A stretch of DNA of 60,757 nucleotides from Chloroflexota bacterium. GTDB taxonomy: Bacteria; Chloroflexota; Dehalococcoidia; Lucifugimonadales; Lucifugimonadaceae. This document shows positions 343 to 18,698 of the stretch, piece by piece (position 1 is the stretch's first letter; every line of letters begins with the position of its first letter). The stretch is taken from contig JABHBJ010000053.1 of NCBI GenBank assembly GCA_018673955.1, positions 1 to 60,757 of the forward strand, in the 5' to 3' direction. The notes under the pieces are model-generated. The model was not told the DNA's origin, searched no databases, and saw only the letters and a program-made list of their open reading frames with translations. The translations under genes and the position numbers were made by a program.

Positions 343-1608
343 CTAAACAGGACGTGCGATTCGCAATCCTGACTTGTACACGTCTTTTACATTCCAGAGT
401 GCGTTGAGATCAGCAGTGGGGTCGCCAGCGACCACGAGCACATCGCCGGGACGACCCGCCGCCAGCGTTCCTGCTTGCTCGCCTACCGCAATCGATTCAG
501 CGGCATGGCTGAGACCGGTTACCAATGCTTCGGTGGTTGAAAGGCCAGCTTTGGTTAGGGCGATCATTTCTTTCACAAATTCACCGGGCGGGTACGCTCC
601 CCACGGCGAGTCGCTGCCAGCGATCATTCGCACTCCCTTGTTCACCAGCTTGTTTACTGAATCGACTCGGGTTTCTAGCGATTGCTTTGAAGCGTCGATG
701 CTGGCCTGTTCTTCTTTGGTCAACCAACCGCGGTCGTATCCGATTCGCTCGGTTAGATCGATGCCGGATTGGACAACGTGAAGCGTTGGGTTCACCCACG
801 CCTTGGCCGCGGCCAACTGTTCGGCGAGGGGCTCGTTGAACTCGTACATTCCGGTTTCATCTTCGAACACGCAGTGAATAATCATATCGACACCGGCGTC
901 GAGTGCATTCTTGATGCCTTGCATCGACGCACAGTGTGCCGCGGTTAGTTTTCCGAAGCGGTGAGCCTCTTCGACTATTACTGCCATCTCTTCGACTGTG
1001 TAGGAGGCTTGGAGTGGGTTTGATGACCACGTAGACCCGCCGGTTGCCATGATCTTGATGAAATCGGCGCCTTCTTTGATTAGCTTTCGAACTTCAGCTC
1101 GGACACCCTCGACTCCGTCGGCTTCGGAACCGCAGTACCAGAAGTGACCGCCAGTGATCGTGATTGGTCGACCTGACACGACCATTTCAGGTCCTTCAGA
1201 CAGGCCACGCTGGATTCCTTCTTTTAGCGAAAAACCAACTTTGTTCTTTGCCCCGTTTTCTCGCGCTGTAGTTACACCGGCGTGAAGAAACGTGCGGGCG
1301 TTTTGAAGTGCTCGCATGAGTAGAACGTCATCTTGTTCATTTCCTGTGATATCGCCGTGTGTCCCGTCGCCGGGGGCCATCATGTGGGTGTGCCCATCGA
1401 CAAGTCCGGGGAGAATCGTTGCGTCGCCGTAGTCTTTGACGGTGAGGTTTGCGCCATCTGGTGCCGATAGCTCACCGACGGCGCCGATTGCTGTGATTCG
1501 ACCGTCGTTGAGAAGGATTGCCTTGCCTGAAACGGTAGGCGACCCGGTGCCGTCGAATATCCGTGCGGCTTTGATCAGGGTGAAATCGTTAGATGGATTT
1601 GCTGCCAA
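343..1608 (-). CDS. Metal-dependent amidohydrolase (imidazolonepropionase/prolidase-like)
   Basis: A 421-residue amidohydrolase-superfamily protein. The N-terminal beta-sandwich leads into the metal motif GLVDGHTHMM (HxH, about residues 72-76). FIKIMATGG holds the candidate carbamylated lysine, TAAHCAS and IIHCVFED give the two further histidines, and IAGSDSPWGAYP gives the catalytic aspartate, so the binuclear-type site looks intact. Families with this architecture hydrolyse cyclic amides or X-Pro/X-Arg dipeptides; the exact substrate is not deducible. No signal peptide is visible, so it is probably cytosolic. It is 90 bp downstream of the HAD gene on the same strand and could be transcribed from that operon or alone. 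Confidence 0.85.
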   Translation of the reverse strand: MAANPSNDFTLIKAARIFDGTGSPTVSGKAILLNDGRITAIGAVGELSAPDGANLTVKDYGDATILPGLVDGHTHMMAPGDGTHGDITGNEQDDVLLMRALQNARTFLHAGVTTARENGAKNKVGFSLKEGIQRGLSEGPEMVVSGRPITITGGHFWYCGSEADGVEGVRAEVRKLIKEGADFIKIMATGGSTWSSNPLQASYTVEEMAVIVEEAHRFGKLTAAHCASMQGIKNALDAGVDMIIHCVFEDETGMYEFNEPLAEQLAAAKAWVNPTLHVVQSGIDLTERIGYDRGWLTKEEQASIDASKQSLETRVDSVNKLVNKGVRMIAGSDSPWGAYPPGEFVKEMIALTKAGLSTTEALVTGLSHAAESIAVGEQAGTLAAGRPGDVLVVAGDPTADLNALWNVKDVYKSGLRIARPV

Positions 1609-12147: not shown

Positions 12148-13365
12148 TTAGCCAACTACGCCGCTATCTCGGAGTCGCTGAACTTCTTTCGGATTTAGCA
12201 AGAGCAATTCGTCCAGTAGCTCATCGGTGTGTTCACCGAGTGAGGGTCCCGGTGAAACCGCTTGATTAGAGCCTTCCGTGGATATTGGCGAACTCACTTG
12301 TTTGATCGTTCCGTAAGACGGATGTTCAACGTCGACTATCAGACCACGTGCTTTGATTTGTTCGTCTTGGAACGCTTCTTCGATCGTATTCACTGACCCT
12401 GACGGAACGATTCCCCTCAAACGATCTAGCCATTCTGCGTTGGTCTTTTCTAATAGGCGTTCGGAAAGTATCGGAATCAGAATTTCGCGATTGTCGTAGC
12501 GTGAAGCGAAACTAGCGAATCGTTCATCAGTGATTAGTTCCGGTAGGTCGGTGAGTTCAGCGAACTTGCGCCAAAAATGTTCTTTTGCGCAAAAAATACT
12601 GATCCAGCCGTCACTTGTTTGAAAGTTCTGAGCAGGCACCAGAGTTTGGTGCGATGAATTGGGCGTTCTTGCCGGTTTCCAGTCGGAATTCAGTTGCCAT
12701 GAAGCGAAATAAGTGAGCATCGACACAGCTGTATCGAGTAAGCTCACATCGACATCTCTCCCAACACCCGTTGTTTTTGCTTCGAGCAGAGCTGCAACTA
12801 ACCCAAGAGCAGCTGCGTAGCCACCTGCGAAGTCGATTATCGATACCCCAGCTTTCCCCGGTGGCCCTTCTGGCTCACCCGTAACCGACATGTAACCGGC
12901 CATCGCCTGCATTATGGGGTCATAGCCAGGTTCTGATGCTCTGGGGCCTGTACGGCCAAATCCGGAAAGTGATCCGGTGACAATCGAAGGATTAATGGAA
13001 CGCAGCGTTTCGTAGGTTAGGCCGAGCTTTTCTGGGAGATCACCGCGCAAATTGTTGAAGACTGCATCTGATTTTTCGACCAGCCGATGAAATATCTTCA
13101 CGCCGTCTGACTTACGTAGATCAAGGGCTATCGATTTCTTCCCGCGATTGAACGATTGGAAGTAGAGAGAATCAGCGTCGTTGGTTGCAGGTGGCACGTA
13201 GCGCGCTACATCTCCACCCGCCGCGGGATCTTCGATCTTGATTATTTCGGCTCCAAGATCGGCGAGGTTGAGAGTAGCGAAAGGTCCAGCACCGAACTGC
13301 GATATGGCGAGGATGCGGATGCCGTGTAGCGGGCCTTTTCGCTGCGACTGGTCGGTCAAGTTCAA
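12148..13365 (-). CDS. CaiB/BaiF-type (family III) CoA transferase
   Basis: A 405-residue family III CoA transferase. The N-terminal Rossmann-like part has the conserved ADLGAEIIKIEDPAAGG, followed by YFQSFNRGKKSIALDL, GLTYETLRSINP and SGFGRTGP. The Asp of SIIDFAGGYAAALG (about residue 178) aligns with the catalytic Asp that forms the mixed anhydride in formyl-CoA and mesaconyl-CoA transferases. Such enzymes move CoA between two carboxylic acids. The start overlaps the MaoC stop by 4 bp. With MaoC hydratase and CitE-type lyase it resembles the final steps of mesaconate, itaconate or citramalate breakdown (CoA transfer, hydration, cleavage). Donor and acceptor are not known. Confidence 0.9.
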   Translation of the reverse strand: MNLTDQSQRKGPLHGIRILAISQFGAGPFATLNLADLGAEIIKIEDPAAGGDVARYVPPATNDADSLYFQSFNRGKKSIALDLRKSDGVKIFHRLVEKSDAVFNNLRGDLPEKLGLTYETLRSINPSIVTGSLSGFGRTGPRASEPGYDPIMQAMAGYMSVTGEPEGPPGKAGVSIIDFAGGYAAALGLVAALLEAKTTGVGRDVDVSLLDTAVSMLTYFASWQLNSDWKPARTPNSSHQTLVPAQNFQTSDGWISIFCAKEHFWRKFAELTDLPELITDERFASFASRYDNREILIPILSERLLEKTNAEWLDRLRGIVPSGSVNTIEEAFQDEQIKARGLIVDVEHPSYGTIKQVSSPISTEGSNQAVSPGPSLGEHTDELLDELLLLNPKEVQRLRDSGVVG

Positions 13366-13853
13366 GATTCCGAATCGTGGGTGATCTTGCCTTCGCCGAG
13401 AGTTGCGTGATTCTTTTTAGGAATAAGCACGTGTCGTCGAACCACCATTACGCGTTCTTCGCGTTGGTTCATTACTTCGGTTTCGAGGTAAACGACTCCT
13501 CGATCGCCTTTCGACGTTACTCGGAGTTCGAGGATGGTCGAAATTGTGTAGATGGTATCGCCGTGAAAGGTCGGTCCTTCGTGTTTTACCGTTTCGTAAT
13601 CGAGATTTGCTATTCCACGTAGTGAGATGTCGTTGACCGTTTGTCCGATTGCTACTGCGAGGACTAAGAGTCCGTTTACAAGGTTTTGACCGTGCTGGGT
13701 GCTCTTGGCGTAGTGGGCATCGATGTGAACCGGGTGTTGGTTTTGAGTTAGCAGCGAAAACCATGAATTGTCGGTCTCGGAGATCGTTCTGCCGGGCCAG
13801 TGTTTAATCACCTGACCGACTTCAAAGTCTTCGAAATAGCGTCCGTTGCTCAT
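13362..13853 (-). CDS. MaoC-like hot-dog-fold enoyl-CoA hydratase
   Basis: A 163-residue single hot-dog protein. RYFEDFEVGQVIKHWPGRTI is the usual MaoC opening, and QNQHPVHIDAHYAKST holds the catalytic hydratase motif with its His. VNGLLVLAVAIGQTV and GDTIYTISTILELR follow as in mesaconyl-CoA or (R)-specific enoyl-CoA hydratases. It would hydrate a C=C bond in a CoA thioester. It is preceded by the CitE-type gene (59 bp gap) and overlaps the CoA transferase by 4 bp, which supports a role in a C5 dicarboxylate pathway instead of fatty-acid metabolism. Confidence 0.9.
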   Translation of the reverse strand: MSNGRYFEDFEVGQVIKHWPGRTISETDNSWFSLLTQNQHPVHIDAHYAKSTQHGQNLVNGLLVLAVAIGQTVNDISLRGIANLDYETVKHEGPTFHGDTIYTISTILELRVTSKGDRGVVYLETEVMNQREERVMVVRRHVLIPKKNHATLGEGKITHDSES

Positions 13854-13912
13854 TATTATTTGCCTTTTGTTTCTGGTATCTCGGTCTAGATCGGGATTGT
13901 TGATTTGATTTG

Positions 13913-14818
13913 TTACGAAATTCCAGCATCTCGGAGGATGTTTTGGGCACGCAGGATAACTGGCATATCGATCATCTCTCCATCGAGCGAAATCGATCCT
14001 CGGCCATCGACTTCAGCTTCGGCGGCGATTGCCAGGACTTTGCGAGCACGGTCGATTTCAGCGTTGGTAGGCTTAAATACCGATTCAATCACTTCTACCT
14101 GAGCCGGGTGAATGGCGAGCTTACCTTTGTAGCCTATCGCTTTGGCGAGCAGGGCATCTTCTCGTAGTCCTTCTGGATCACGAAATTTTGTATATGGCGT
14201 GTCTAGCGCATGAACCCCGGCTGCCCTGGCTGCAATGGCTACGGCGGATCGGGGGTACGCGAGTCCTGGTTCGAAAGCAGTTTGAGTGTTGGTTTCGGTT
14301 TTATCGACGGTGCGACTGATTCCCATGTCGGCTGAAAAATCTTCAGCACCGAATGCTGCCCATCGAATACGATCGCTCGATTTGCAGATCGCATAGGCGT
14401 TGATTACTGCTTCTGCGGTTTCTAGCCACGGAAGGATGGTTGTGCTGCCCACTGTCACTCCCGCGCTACGTTCCGCGTTTGCGAGGATTTCTTCAAGTTC
14501 GGATACTTCGTCTGCGTTGCCAATTTTCCCAATGGATATTCCGATGATGTCGTTCGAGATAAGGGCATTTATGTCGTCTTCGGCAAGACCTGATGCCATC
14601 GAGTTAACTCGAGGTGCAAGCAGTTTTCCCGCTTTTGCTAGGAGCGGAATGTGCGCTGCGACGATTCGTCTGGCTGCCTGCTTTTCGCCGGATGGGACCG
14701 AATCTTCTAGGTCGGGGATCAGCCATTTCGCATCGAATCCAACAGCTTTCTCAAGCATCTTGGGTTGGTTGCCGGGTACGAACAGGAGAGTTCGAGGGTT
14801 TGAGAGTGGGTCGTTCAC
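13913..14818 (-). CDS. HpcH/HpaI-CitE family acyl-CoA lyase (malyl/citramalyl-CoA lyase-like)
   Basis: A 301-residue TIM-barrel protein with a GTG start at 14816-14818. RTLLFVPGNQPKMLEKA and the acidic DLEDSVP match CitE-type lyases. The substrate-binding Arg is in APRVNS, the metal-binding Glu in ILPWLETAEAV and Asp in AFGAEDFSADMG, followed by GKLAIHPAQVEVI. All conserved ligands are present. Members cleave citryl-, malyl-, methylmalyl- or citramalyl-CoA into acetyl-CoA or propionyl-CoA and a 2-oxoacid. It is the first gene of the CitE-MaoC-CaiB cluster. Confidence 0.88.
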   Translation of the reverse strand: MNDPLSNPRTLLFVPGNQPKMLEKAVGFDAKWLIPDLEDSVPSGEKQAARRIVAAHIPLLAKAGKLLAPRVNSMASGLAEDDINALISNDIIGISIGKIGNADEVSELEEILANAERSAGVTVGSTTILPWLETAEAVINAYAICKSSDRIRWAAFGAEDFSADMGISRTVDKTETNTQTAFEPGLAYPRSAVAIAARAAGVHALDTPYTKFRDPEGLREDALLAKAIGYKGKLAIHPAQVEVIESVFKPTNAEIDRARKVLAIAAEAEVDGRGSISLDGEMIDMPVILRAQNILRDAGIS

Positions 14819-15950: not shown

Positions 15951-18698
15951 CTAGTCGGTTGGTGGTGGTGCTGCTTCGATCGTGTCTATTCGAATGGCGC
16001 ACGCCTTAAATTCCGGCGTTTCGGTGATGAAATCGTATGCATCCGAAGTAAGCCTGTTTGTTTGAGTTAGTTCTGGGAATGCGAAGCTCATGAAAACCGT
16101 GCCGTGTGGCGATCGATCTGTAATCTTGATTGGCACCTCGACTGATCCTCTTCTTGAGCTAACGGTTACTTTCTGACCGTCGGCGAGTTCCATTTGCTCC
16201 GCATCGAACGGATTGATCTCCGCAAGCTCCGATGGAACTAGTAGTTCAAACCCTGTAGCGCGGCCAGTTTGGGTGCCTGTGTGGTAGGTCGAACGGCGCC
16301 TGCCGGTTGTGAGGATTAACGGATATTCGGAGTCGGTTGGCTCCGCGGGTGGAATGTGATCGACAGGGGCGAAGTAGCCGGGCATGCCAGAATCCATTTC
16401 GTGCTCGTGCAGGAACTGGGTGCCGGGATGGTCTTCAGTCGGGCAGGGCCATTGAATTCCGCCTTCCGAATCGAGACGGTCGTAGGTGATGCCGGTGAAT
16501 ATCGGTGCCAGCTGCCTCATTTCGTCCCAAACGTCCGAGGATGAGTTCAGGTTTTGGACCACTCCAAATCTCTTCATAAGGTCGAACAAGATGTCGACAT
16601 CTGTACGCGATTCTCCAACCGGTTTTATTGCCGGCCTAACGCGCTGAACGCGCCGTTCACTGTTGGCAAAAGTTCCATCAGATTCAGCGAATGATGCGGC
16701 CGGTAAAACGACGTCGGCAAGCTTTGCTGTGTCGGTCATGAAGATGTCTTGAACCACGATGAAGTCGGTTGCTTCGAGTGCTGCTTGGGCGTGGTTTGTG
16801 TTGGGGTCGGAAATGACCGTATTTTCACCCATGATGTAGACGCCTTTGACCTTGCCTCGGAGCATCTGGTCCATCGCTGTAATTTTCGTAATTCCGCGAC
16901 GTTTTGGAAGGTCCGCACCCCATGCTTTTTCGAACTTTTCACGCACTCCAGGTCGTTCGACTTTTTGGTAGCCGGGAAGGTCGGTAGGCAATGCTCCTGA
17001 ATCGGATGCACCTTGCACGTTATTTTGACCTCGAAGTGGGTTCACACCGGCGTTTGGTTTCCCGAAGTTCCCGCCGAGCATCCCTAAATTCGCTACCGAC
17101 TGAACGTTATGTGATCCGCAAGAATGTTCGGTGATTCCGAGCGTGTAGCAAATAGCTGCTTTTCCAGATGCAGCCGCATATTCTCGAGCCGTGGCAATAA
17201 TGTCTTCCGCTGGGACACCGCAAATTTCAGCGGCGTATTCCGGTGTGTAGAACTCGACGTGCTTGGCGAGTTCATCGAAGCCTTCAGTTCGGTGTTCGAC
17301 GTACTCTCGATCGTAAAGACCCTCTTTGATCATCACGTGTGCGAAGGCGTTGAACAACGGTATGTCGGTGCCGATGTTGATCTGTAAATGTCGAGTCGCC
17401 CATTTGGTCAGTTCAATTTTACGGGGGTCGATAACAATGAGTTTTGCGCCGTTTTTGACAGAGCGCTTCATTCGCAGCGAAATTACGGGGTGGGCCTCGG
17501 TCGTGTTTGACCCTACGACCAACAGTAGATCGGTTCCTGCTAACTCTTCAATAGAGTTAGTCATGGCACCTTTGCCAACCATGACCGCCATACCGGCGAC
17601 CGTAGGAGCGTGTCAGGTGCGGGAACAGTTATCGATATTGTTAGTACCGATACCTATTCGGGCGAACTTCTGCATGAGATAGTTCGCTTCTGTGACTGTG
17701 CGAGCCGAGGACCAGCAAACTAGGGAATCGGGACCTGAATCATCTCGAATTGAGGTGAAGCGTTCTGTAACGAGATTGAGTGCTTCGTCCCAAGATGCAC
17801 GTCTGAAAGAACCGTTCTCCTTGATGAGAGGATATTTGAGTCGCTCACCGCTTTTAACGAACTCCCACGAAGCGAACTGACCTTTTACACAGAGTGATCC
17901 ACGGCTTGGAGAATCGAAATCTGGTTCAGTTCCCTTTAATTGGCCATCTTCGGTCAGCAGATGAATGCCGCAGCCGACTCCACAGTACGGACAGATCGAC
18001 TTCGTGCGTTCGAGGTTTTCGGCCTTCGTAGTGCCGACGATCTTTTTGTCCGTGAGCGCTCCGGTGGGGCATGTATTGATGCACTGGCCACAGAACGTGC
18101 AAGGCGATTCAATAAGTTTATTGTTGAAGAACGTGGCTATCGAGTTTTCTTGTCCGCGCCCCTCGACCGTGATCGCTCCGGCTTGCTCCCAATCGTTGCA
18201 GATGTTTGTGCAGCGGAAGCACGAGATGCAGTAGTCGTAGTCTCTCTGGATGAACGGGTTGTCGTCCTTAGCTTTCTCTCGTACGACTAAGGAAGGGAAC
18301 GCATCCCATTTCGCATCGTATTCTTCGGCGGCTGTGTGCAGTTCACACTTCTTAAACGAGACGCATTTGGGGCAGTTGGTAGGGGAGGACGTTTCAGAGA
18401 GCAACATCTCAAGAATAGTCTTGCGATAGTCGGTGATCGAATCGGAGTGTGTTTCAACCCGCATTTCATCTGAAGCAAAAGCGGTGCAAGCGGCAACCTG
18501 TTGTATTTGGCCATTTACCTCGACGTCCACGAGGCACATACGGCAGGTGCCCTGAGGGCCAACTCGCTCGTCGTAACACAACGTTGGAACGTCGAATCCT
18601 GCAGATCTTATTGCGTCAAGAACACGAGCGTCGGTACCGCAATCGATTGCGATTCCGTTCACTTCTACGTTCAGTCTATTTTTGACCTGTGTTGTCAT
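15951..18698 (-). CDS. fdhA: Formate dehydrogenase catalytic subunit, selenocysteine-containing (UGA at 17613-17615)
   Basis: One 915-residue protein results when the in-frame TGA at 17615-17613 is read as selenocysteine (residue 362). Domains: an N-terminal [2Fe-2S] NuoG-like domain (Cys41, 52, 55, 70); a Cys-rich segment NCPKCVSFKKCELH; two [4Fe-4S] clusters (CISCFRCTNIC, CTFCGQCINTC); the molybdopterin-domain cluster CPYCGVGC; and the Mo/W-bisMGD domain to the C-terminus. The site reads GTNNIDNCSRT-U-HAPTVAG, and the E. coli FdhF equivalent is NVDCCARV-U-HGPSVAG. It oxidises formate to CO2 or runs in reverse. The N-terminal cluster domain suggests an NAD- or ferredoxin-linked cytosolic complex, but no NuoE/NuoF-like partner is adjacent. 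Selenocysteine machinery must be elsewhere in the genome. Confidence 0.9.
17584..17615 (-). promoter_or_regulatory. Candidate bacterial SECIS element after the UGA codon
   Basis: On the minus strand the TGA (17615-17613) is followed by a possible hairpin with arms GTCGCC (17600-17595) and GGCGGT (17589-17584), six pairs of which two are G-T, enclosing loop GGTAT. The loop's GGT is the seventh codon after UGA, the same position as the apical GGU in the E. coli fdhF SECIS. Confidence 0.65.

Follow-up and report, generated by a model that had tools for sequence, protein, structure and literature searches.

In formate dehydrogenases (FDHs), a histidine and an arginine have catalytic roles and the chaperone FdhD sulfurates the cofactor; FdsA proteins of the Rhodobacter capsulatus type work together with a diaphorase. 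In the systems studied, FdhD is regarded as essential for FDH activity (PMC10609526, PMC6239281), and the R. capsulatus enzyme is described as being matured by an FdhD-like protein, FdsC (PMC6239281), although the presence of FDH without fdhD in other organisms is treated as a caveat in a review (PMC10609526). Ocean metagenomes are reported to include FdhA among their selenoprotein families (PMC2398784), and SelA and SelB are reported from sponge symbiont bins of several phyla (PMC5649159). For SAR202, described as an abundant ocean group (PMC11245477), FDH has been placed among the C1-oxidation genes (PMC5395668, PMC5864207). Within the consulted portions of the open-access literature searched, we found neither a SAR202 FDH with selenocysteine (Sec) nor a loss of FdhD in SAR202, and in the main text of the cultivation paper (PMC10444878) "formate" and "selen-" give no match.

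The window analysed here is a stretch of 60,757 nucleotides (contig C65) from the assembly of a deep-ocean SAR202 (Chloroflexota) bacterium, which has 2.2 Mb and is 87.1% complete. On its minus strand, a single frame runs from 18698 to 15951 and encodes 915 residues with one in-frame stop, a TGA at 17613-17615 (residue 362), so that a mechanical ORF list divides the locus into two ORFs of 361 and 546 residues, and the molybdopterin oxidoreductase domain is distributed over both. The initial annotation had read these two minus-strand frames, split by the single TGA, as a Sec-containing FDH, a reading that our analysis supports: translation confirmed the split, and the peptide it had given across the TGA, NIDNCSRT-U-HAPTVAG, is exactly that of the read-through product. 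It put six further codons behind the TGA; the correct number is seven, counted up to the ATG that opens the second ORF. Judging from the sequence, we consider it highly likely that the locus is one gene and encodes a cytoplasmic, Sec-containing Mo/W FDH of a SAR202 (Dehalococcoidia, Candidatus Lucifugimonas-like) bacterium. The closest FdhA among titled records is 99% identical and comes from a Chloroflexi MAG (JAQCHZ010000003.1), and that of the cultured SAR202 strain Candidatus Lucifugimonas marina JH1073 (CP046147.1) is 88% identical to the FdhA of the window.

The read-through product of this predicted fdhA gene (Sec FDH alpha subunit, 15951..18698, minus strand) scores 785.4 bits against the NCBIfam model TIGR01591 (Fdh-alpha; cut-off 666.25), and its Pfam domains are a NuoG-like N-terminal Fe-S extension, Molybdop_Fe4S4, molybdopterin oxidoreductase and a dinucleotide-binding domain. 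The catalytic part (15984..18011, minus strand; PF04879, PF00384, PF01568) carries the FS0 [4Fe-4S] site, Sec362-His363, Arg556 and the molybdopterin dinucleotide binding region. Residue 362 is presumably the Mo/W ligand, as in the rest of the family. Matches to solved structures include 7qv7, which is FdhF of the hydrogen-dependent CO2 reductase and the best of them, 6tg9 and 1aa6; in 7qv7 and 6tg9 (chain 6tg9_A), the TGA column is aligned with a Cys that is followed by a His. Residues 362, 363, 556 and 272 are invariant over a hand-picked set of 35 Chloroflexota and 23 other rows, being Sec362, His363, Arg556 and Lys272 in 35/35 Chloroflexota rows, and the Sec/Cys-His pair, the catalytic Arg and the FS0 cysteines are retained in the rows compared. 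At three loci (L056, 5992-8700; L061, 3814-6650; and L134, on contig C12 of genome G048), the NuoG-like N-terminal and catalytic parts lie in separate frames, a layout that looks as if fdhA had split at the domain boundary.

We examined 110 homologous loci, 80 from titled records and 30 from relatives' genomes, with some overlap between the genomes; 108 of them cover residue 362, which L053 and L131 do not reach. The codon is TGA in 103 of the 108 and a Cys codon in five (L076, L084, L097, L105 and L135), and by origin TGA is found at 32/32 titled Chloroflexota loci, 43/47 other titled loci and 28/29 loci of the relatives' set. The 32/32 serve here in place of the check on reads that the initial annotation had set as a refuting condition, and they leave its reading unrefuted. 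Sec is not universal in the window's order, because L135 (genome G058, 41% identity) has TGC at this site and five further matches of 40-42% identity, which cover nearly the full query, have no stop (genomes G041, G046, G047, G051 and G053). In a rapid maximum-likelihood analysis of 85 rows, the 32 Chloroflexota-titled FdhA rows fall on one side of a branch with a support of 99; immediately outside it come L132, which belongs to the window's order, and a Planctomycetota-like group (L057-L060), and L135, also from the window's order, is found elsewhere on a long branch.

Downstream of the TGA, the hairpin with a GGTAT loop claimed in the initial annotation was recovered as a candidate bacterial SECIS element of 7 bp (17583..17601, minus strand, read from 17601 to 17583) with the apical loop GGUAU at 17590-17594 (read 17594-17590), which an outer stem may lengthen to 17579-17605. 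Its offset from the UGA is the same as in what we take to be the SECIS element of E. coli fdhF. The folding energy of the hairpin by itself is not significant (z of -0.71 over 61 nt and -1.18 over 27 nt), and we therefore dropped it as proof of a SECIS element and turned to comparative tests instead; it is the retention of the TGA, the fourfold-degenerate sites and the covariation that make the hairpin more than a chance fold. Across 12 genus rows, the 11-codon window 366-376 comes out as the most conserved of 734 at fourfold-degenerate sites, with a mean homozygosity of 0.95 vs 0.40 elsewhere; across 20 family rows it is third of 383 and across 47 other rows third of 158, where the windows that outrank it start at codons 359-363 and overlap it. 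Among 38 sequences hand-picked for diversity from the 103 TGA loci, standard pairs occupy 97.0% of the hairpin pair cells, covariation scores 0.445, compared with 0.215 on average after shuffling (0/500 shuffles as high; at most 0.166 when the partner is slid by 1-3 columns), and 23 cells have changes on both sides against a shuffled mean of 4.2. Counted as pairs, those changed on both sides number three, showing no excess over the shuffles, 205/500 of which reach this value.

Over the 103 TGA loci, the apical loop reads GGUCU in 68, GGUAU in 28, including the window's genus, and GGGAU in seven (L041, L042, L046, L047 and three others), whose SelB may recognise the altered loop. Scanned with Rfam at gathering thresholds, the window yielded three tRNAs and no SECIS family. 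The expectation that Cys homologues have no hairpin held only in part: of the four Cys loci folded, with L135 left out, L076 and L105 fold weakly at the hairpin site and L084 and L097 still fold. All five Cys loci match a 48-column model, at lower scores (19.4-43.2 bits vs 69.3), as is to be expected since these columns also encode conserved protein.

The selA, selB, selC and selD genes that the initial annotation had inferred are all present in the source genome, each above its cut-off, so that its reading is not refuted by a lack of selC or selB. selC (contig C11:8564-8657) scores 66.4 bits (gathering score 47) and has the anticodon TCA according to ARAGORN; selB reaches 326.9 bits, or 345.8 together with a C-terminal piece that shares its frame (cut-off 242.25); selA scores 515.9 bits (cut-off 267.9) and selD 363.2 bits (cut-off 125). 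A further tRNA-Sec match above the gathering score, on contig C53, was dropped as a tRNA-Ser(GCT) by ARAGORN. selC adjoins a NuoE-NuoF-NuoG-like cluster that is probably complex I (8564-14242 of L137, on the same contig). selD itself contains one in-frame TGA near its N-terminus, in the context CAG-U-AGK (L021, 1501-2430; contig C96:55507-56436 of the source genome), and because of this CAG-TGA-AGK motif it is probably a second selenoprotein of the genome. Among the 37 genomes of family f1, with selB scored above its curated cut-off, the Sec-FDH occurs in 27/32 genomes with selB and 0/5 without (Fisher p = 0.0006), a tally in which G003, whose fragment stops before residue 362, counts as lacking it and G015, with a 377-residue piece and one TGA at an unconfirmed place, as having it. 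In the rest of the order, 21 of 23 genomes have selB above the cut-off and two (G042 and G048) carry a TGA-bearing close FdhA; the Sec-FDH tracks selB within the family and does not across the order.

A UGA at a Sec/Cys site, a constrained hairpin downstream of it and selA, selB, selC and selD, as expected of a Sec protein, are thus all found, and the UGA is very probably read as Sec inside an FDH. That the TGA is a true stop splitting a dead gene, or a sequencing error, accords with the two ORFs of the mechanical list, but the identical TGA recurs in the assemblies of many species, with identities as low as about 44% and with the frame conserved on both sides, and synonymous constraint is strongest at the SECIS element; we give this explanation a negligible probability. 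It is just as hard to credit an altered genetic code, in which TGA would stand for Trp or another residue, as nothing except the TGA itself speaks for it, it is the sole TGA in the gene and lies at a known Sec site, and selA, selB, selC and selD are all present.

The N-terminal extension (18024..18698, minus strand; Fer2_4, Fer4_Nqo3, NADH-G_4Fe-4S_3) carries a predicted [2Fe-2S] site, two ferredoxin-type [4Fe-4S] sites and an eroded His/Cys3 site, and its NADH-G_4Fe-4S_3 match (26.4 bits) falls below the cut-off of 27. In the ligand table, the His/Cys3 site (18345..18386, minus strand), which we take to be of the NuoG [4Fe-4S] type, has its three Cys and a Ser at the His position. All 47 titled non-Chloroflexota rows have the three Cys and 32 have the His; five of the 33 titled Chloroflexota rows do not cover the site, and in the others the His is never present and the Cys triplet is intact in 15 and entirely missing in 13, the His column being less certain than the Cys columns owing to gaps nearby. 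The His of this site is missing, too, from the Planctomycetota-like L057-L060, which have a NuoF-like gene. The remaining Fe-S cluster sites are retained in those rows shown that cover them.

When the NuoE- and NuoF-like proteins of the source genome were compared by tblastn with the flanks of the 110 loci, some of which end at contig ends and which span about 1.5 kb in the loci from relatives' genomes, a NuoF-like gene was found near fdhA in 30, 29 of them from outside Chloroflexota plus L132; the other Chloroflexota loci gave none. No NuoE/F match was found in the examined flanks of the window gene (L106), of its relatives L026-L056 and L061, or of the JH1073 locus (L089). The source genome, at 87% completeness, has one PF01512 gene, in the NuoE-NuoF-NuoG-like cluster near selC, where the family model was applied to NuoF alone. 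Since the flanks examined contain no diaphorase gene, the electron acceptor would probably be ferredoxin or another soluble carrier, or else NuoE/NuoF borrowed from complex I.

The FdhD model TIGR00129 finds no match in the source genome, nor in any of the 60 genomes of the genus, family and order (the source genome and 59 relatives), 33 of which have a completeness of 90% or more and a contamination of 5% or less; as a control, it matches 8 of 14 well-known genomes. There is likewise no FdhD match in the genomes with the Cys codon of L135 (G058) or the five stop-free matches (G041, G046, G047, G051 and G053). In a search with PF02634, applied to the genomes behind 46 of the 80 loci from titled records, FdhD is found in 0/19 Chloroflexota-titled genomes vs 24/27 other genomes with a related FdhA (Fisher p = 4e-10); the three others without it are G090, G097 and G102, and one of the 27, that of L105, carries a Cys enzyme. 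The 19 FdhD-less genomes include the complete JH1073 chromosome (G096) and a chromosome-titled assembly (G075, from L055). In a class-wide sample, FdhD is present in 102/294 genomes, all 102 marked as belonging to the same class and none to the same order or nearer, while for the 192 without FdhD order membership is given for the 20 that are listed. Other Dehalococcoidia carry FdhD, and in the window's order none was found.

The absence of FdhD does not exclude membership in the FDH family, because other organisms with FDH are reported to be without fdhD (PMC10609526). Positions that differ throughout 35 Chloroflexota rows while being fixed in 23 FdhD-bearing rows, a conceivable trace of FdhD loss, came to a single site (612) in residues 225-915. 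For MobA, taken as a marker of bis-MGD synthesis, no match above the curated cut-off was found in the 60 genomes, a cut-off that one of the 14 control genomes passes; weaker matches (E <= 6.4e-16) occur in 14 of 18 genus mates, and matches are only weak in G009, G011, G012, G014 and the source genome, whose own best match has an E-value of 2.9e-6. As far as gene absence can tell, the lineage appears to mature its Sec FDH without FdhD.

In the window, fdhA is preceded upstream by a VTT-domain (DedA-like) gene and converges with a gene for a 2-hydroxyacid dehydrogenase, followed by those for an HpcH/HpaI lyase, a MaoC-like/mesaconyl-CoA hydratase and a CoA-transferase III, an order repeated in most genus loci with long enough contigs. 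The CoA-transferase III, hydratase and lyase genes stand in a row (12148-14818, minus strand) and may belong to a mesaconyl/citramalyl-CoA-type pathway. At 4 of the 39 loci compared (L037, L039, L040 and L043), a formate-tetrahydrofolate ligase gene lies immediately upstream of fdhA, the only copy scored being that of L040 (PF01268, 709.6 bits); no ligase gene adjoins fdhA in the window itself. This adjacency ties the enzyme to formate, and, together with membership in the family, makes formate oxidation plausible.

Under the mechanism we propose, SelB bound to the hairpin just downstream would deliver Sec-tRNA(Sec) to the UGA, and Sec362, His363 and Arg556 would form the site that, by analogy with the family, turns formate into CO2. 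Formate would be oxidised at Mo or W, and the electrons may leave via FS0 and two [4Fe-4S] clusters, as their ligands suggest. The likely role would be in the last one-carbon oxidation step, from formyl-tetrahydrofolate through formate to CO2. The direction of the reaction is not readable from sequence, and FDH activity is not certain, because FdhD was not found and the partner subunit that usually accompanies NuoG-type FdhA proteins is absent from the examined flanks.

An enzyme working mainly as a CO2 reductase, and thus supplying formate for formyl-tetrahydrofolate in anabolic one-carbon metabolism, would fit both the ligase gene directly upstream of fdhA at 4/39 loci and the best structural match, FdhF of the hydrogen-dependent CO2 reductase (7qv7); we nonetheless regard it as unlikely, since the cultivation paper reports the use of carbohydrates (PMC10444878) and published readings of SAR202, as far as consulted, lean to C1 oxidation (PMC5395668, PMC5864207). 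The absence of FdhD from all 60 genomes of the order, the lack of a NuoE/F match in the examined flanks and the loss of His/Cys3 ligands in part of the clade could also mean that this is a Sec molybdoenzyme of the FDH family whose substrate changed, or whose formate activity was lost, after FdhD and the diaphorase were lost. Such a change is very unlikely in view of the invariance of Sec362, His363, Arg556 and Lys272 in all 35 Chloroflexota rows and of the fact that, among residues 225-915, site 612 alone sharply separates these from the 23 FdhD-bearing relatives. Returning to a Sec FDH, we tentatively propose, as a possibility with somewhat less than even chances, that the SAR202 enzyme stands alone, matured without FdhD and handing its electrons on to an acceptor that is not a dedicated diaphorase. 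Three changes would then mark a distinct enzyme lineage, namely the chaperone lost, the diaphorase gene lost and the His/Cys3 site eroded; in this lineage, the sulfido ligand would be placed on the cofactor by another protein or would not be needed.

Taken as a selenoprotein, the gene is nothing unusual and its enzyme type is already known; it brings SAR202 into the group of bacteria apparently investing selenium in formate metabolism. What makes the case useful is that FdhD is missing: the clade keeps a conserved Sec enzyme under selection, no FdhD was found in it, and with a cultured SAR202 strain whose genome is closed the FdhD question becomes testable. It is the state of the SAR202 enzyme with neither FdhD nor a diaphorase that merits experimental work.

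Of the closest known systems, E. coli FdhF (FDH-H, matched at family level by chain 1aa6_A) has the Sec-His active site in common with the SAR202 protein and, presumably, a hairpin just after the UGA, as in the SAR202 gene. It lacks the NuoG-like extension present in SAR202, as indicated by its match starting at query residue 231, and is reported to require FdhD (PMC6239281), which was not found in SAR202. The NuoG-like FdhA proteins of Clostridia and other anaerobes (e.g., Syntrophomonas, Thermohalobacter) share the full-length architecture, the Sec codon and the position of the SECIS element, but many of them have flanking genes of the NuoE/NuoF type and an FdhD in the genome, neither of which was found for the window gene. 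FdsA, represented by 6tg9, which we assume to come from a R. capsulatus-type organism, aligns with residues 11-905, the N-terminal Fe-S part included, and has Cys where the SAR202 protein has the predicted Sec. In other Chloroflexota, known from single cells of sediments, Sec is likewise reported at the FDH active site (PMC4959059, PMC5736913); they differ in coming from the subsurface and in being described together with Wood-Ljungdahl genes, whereas the enzyme of the window belongs to SAR202.
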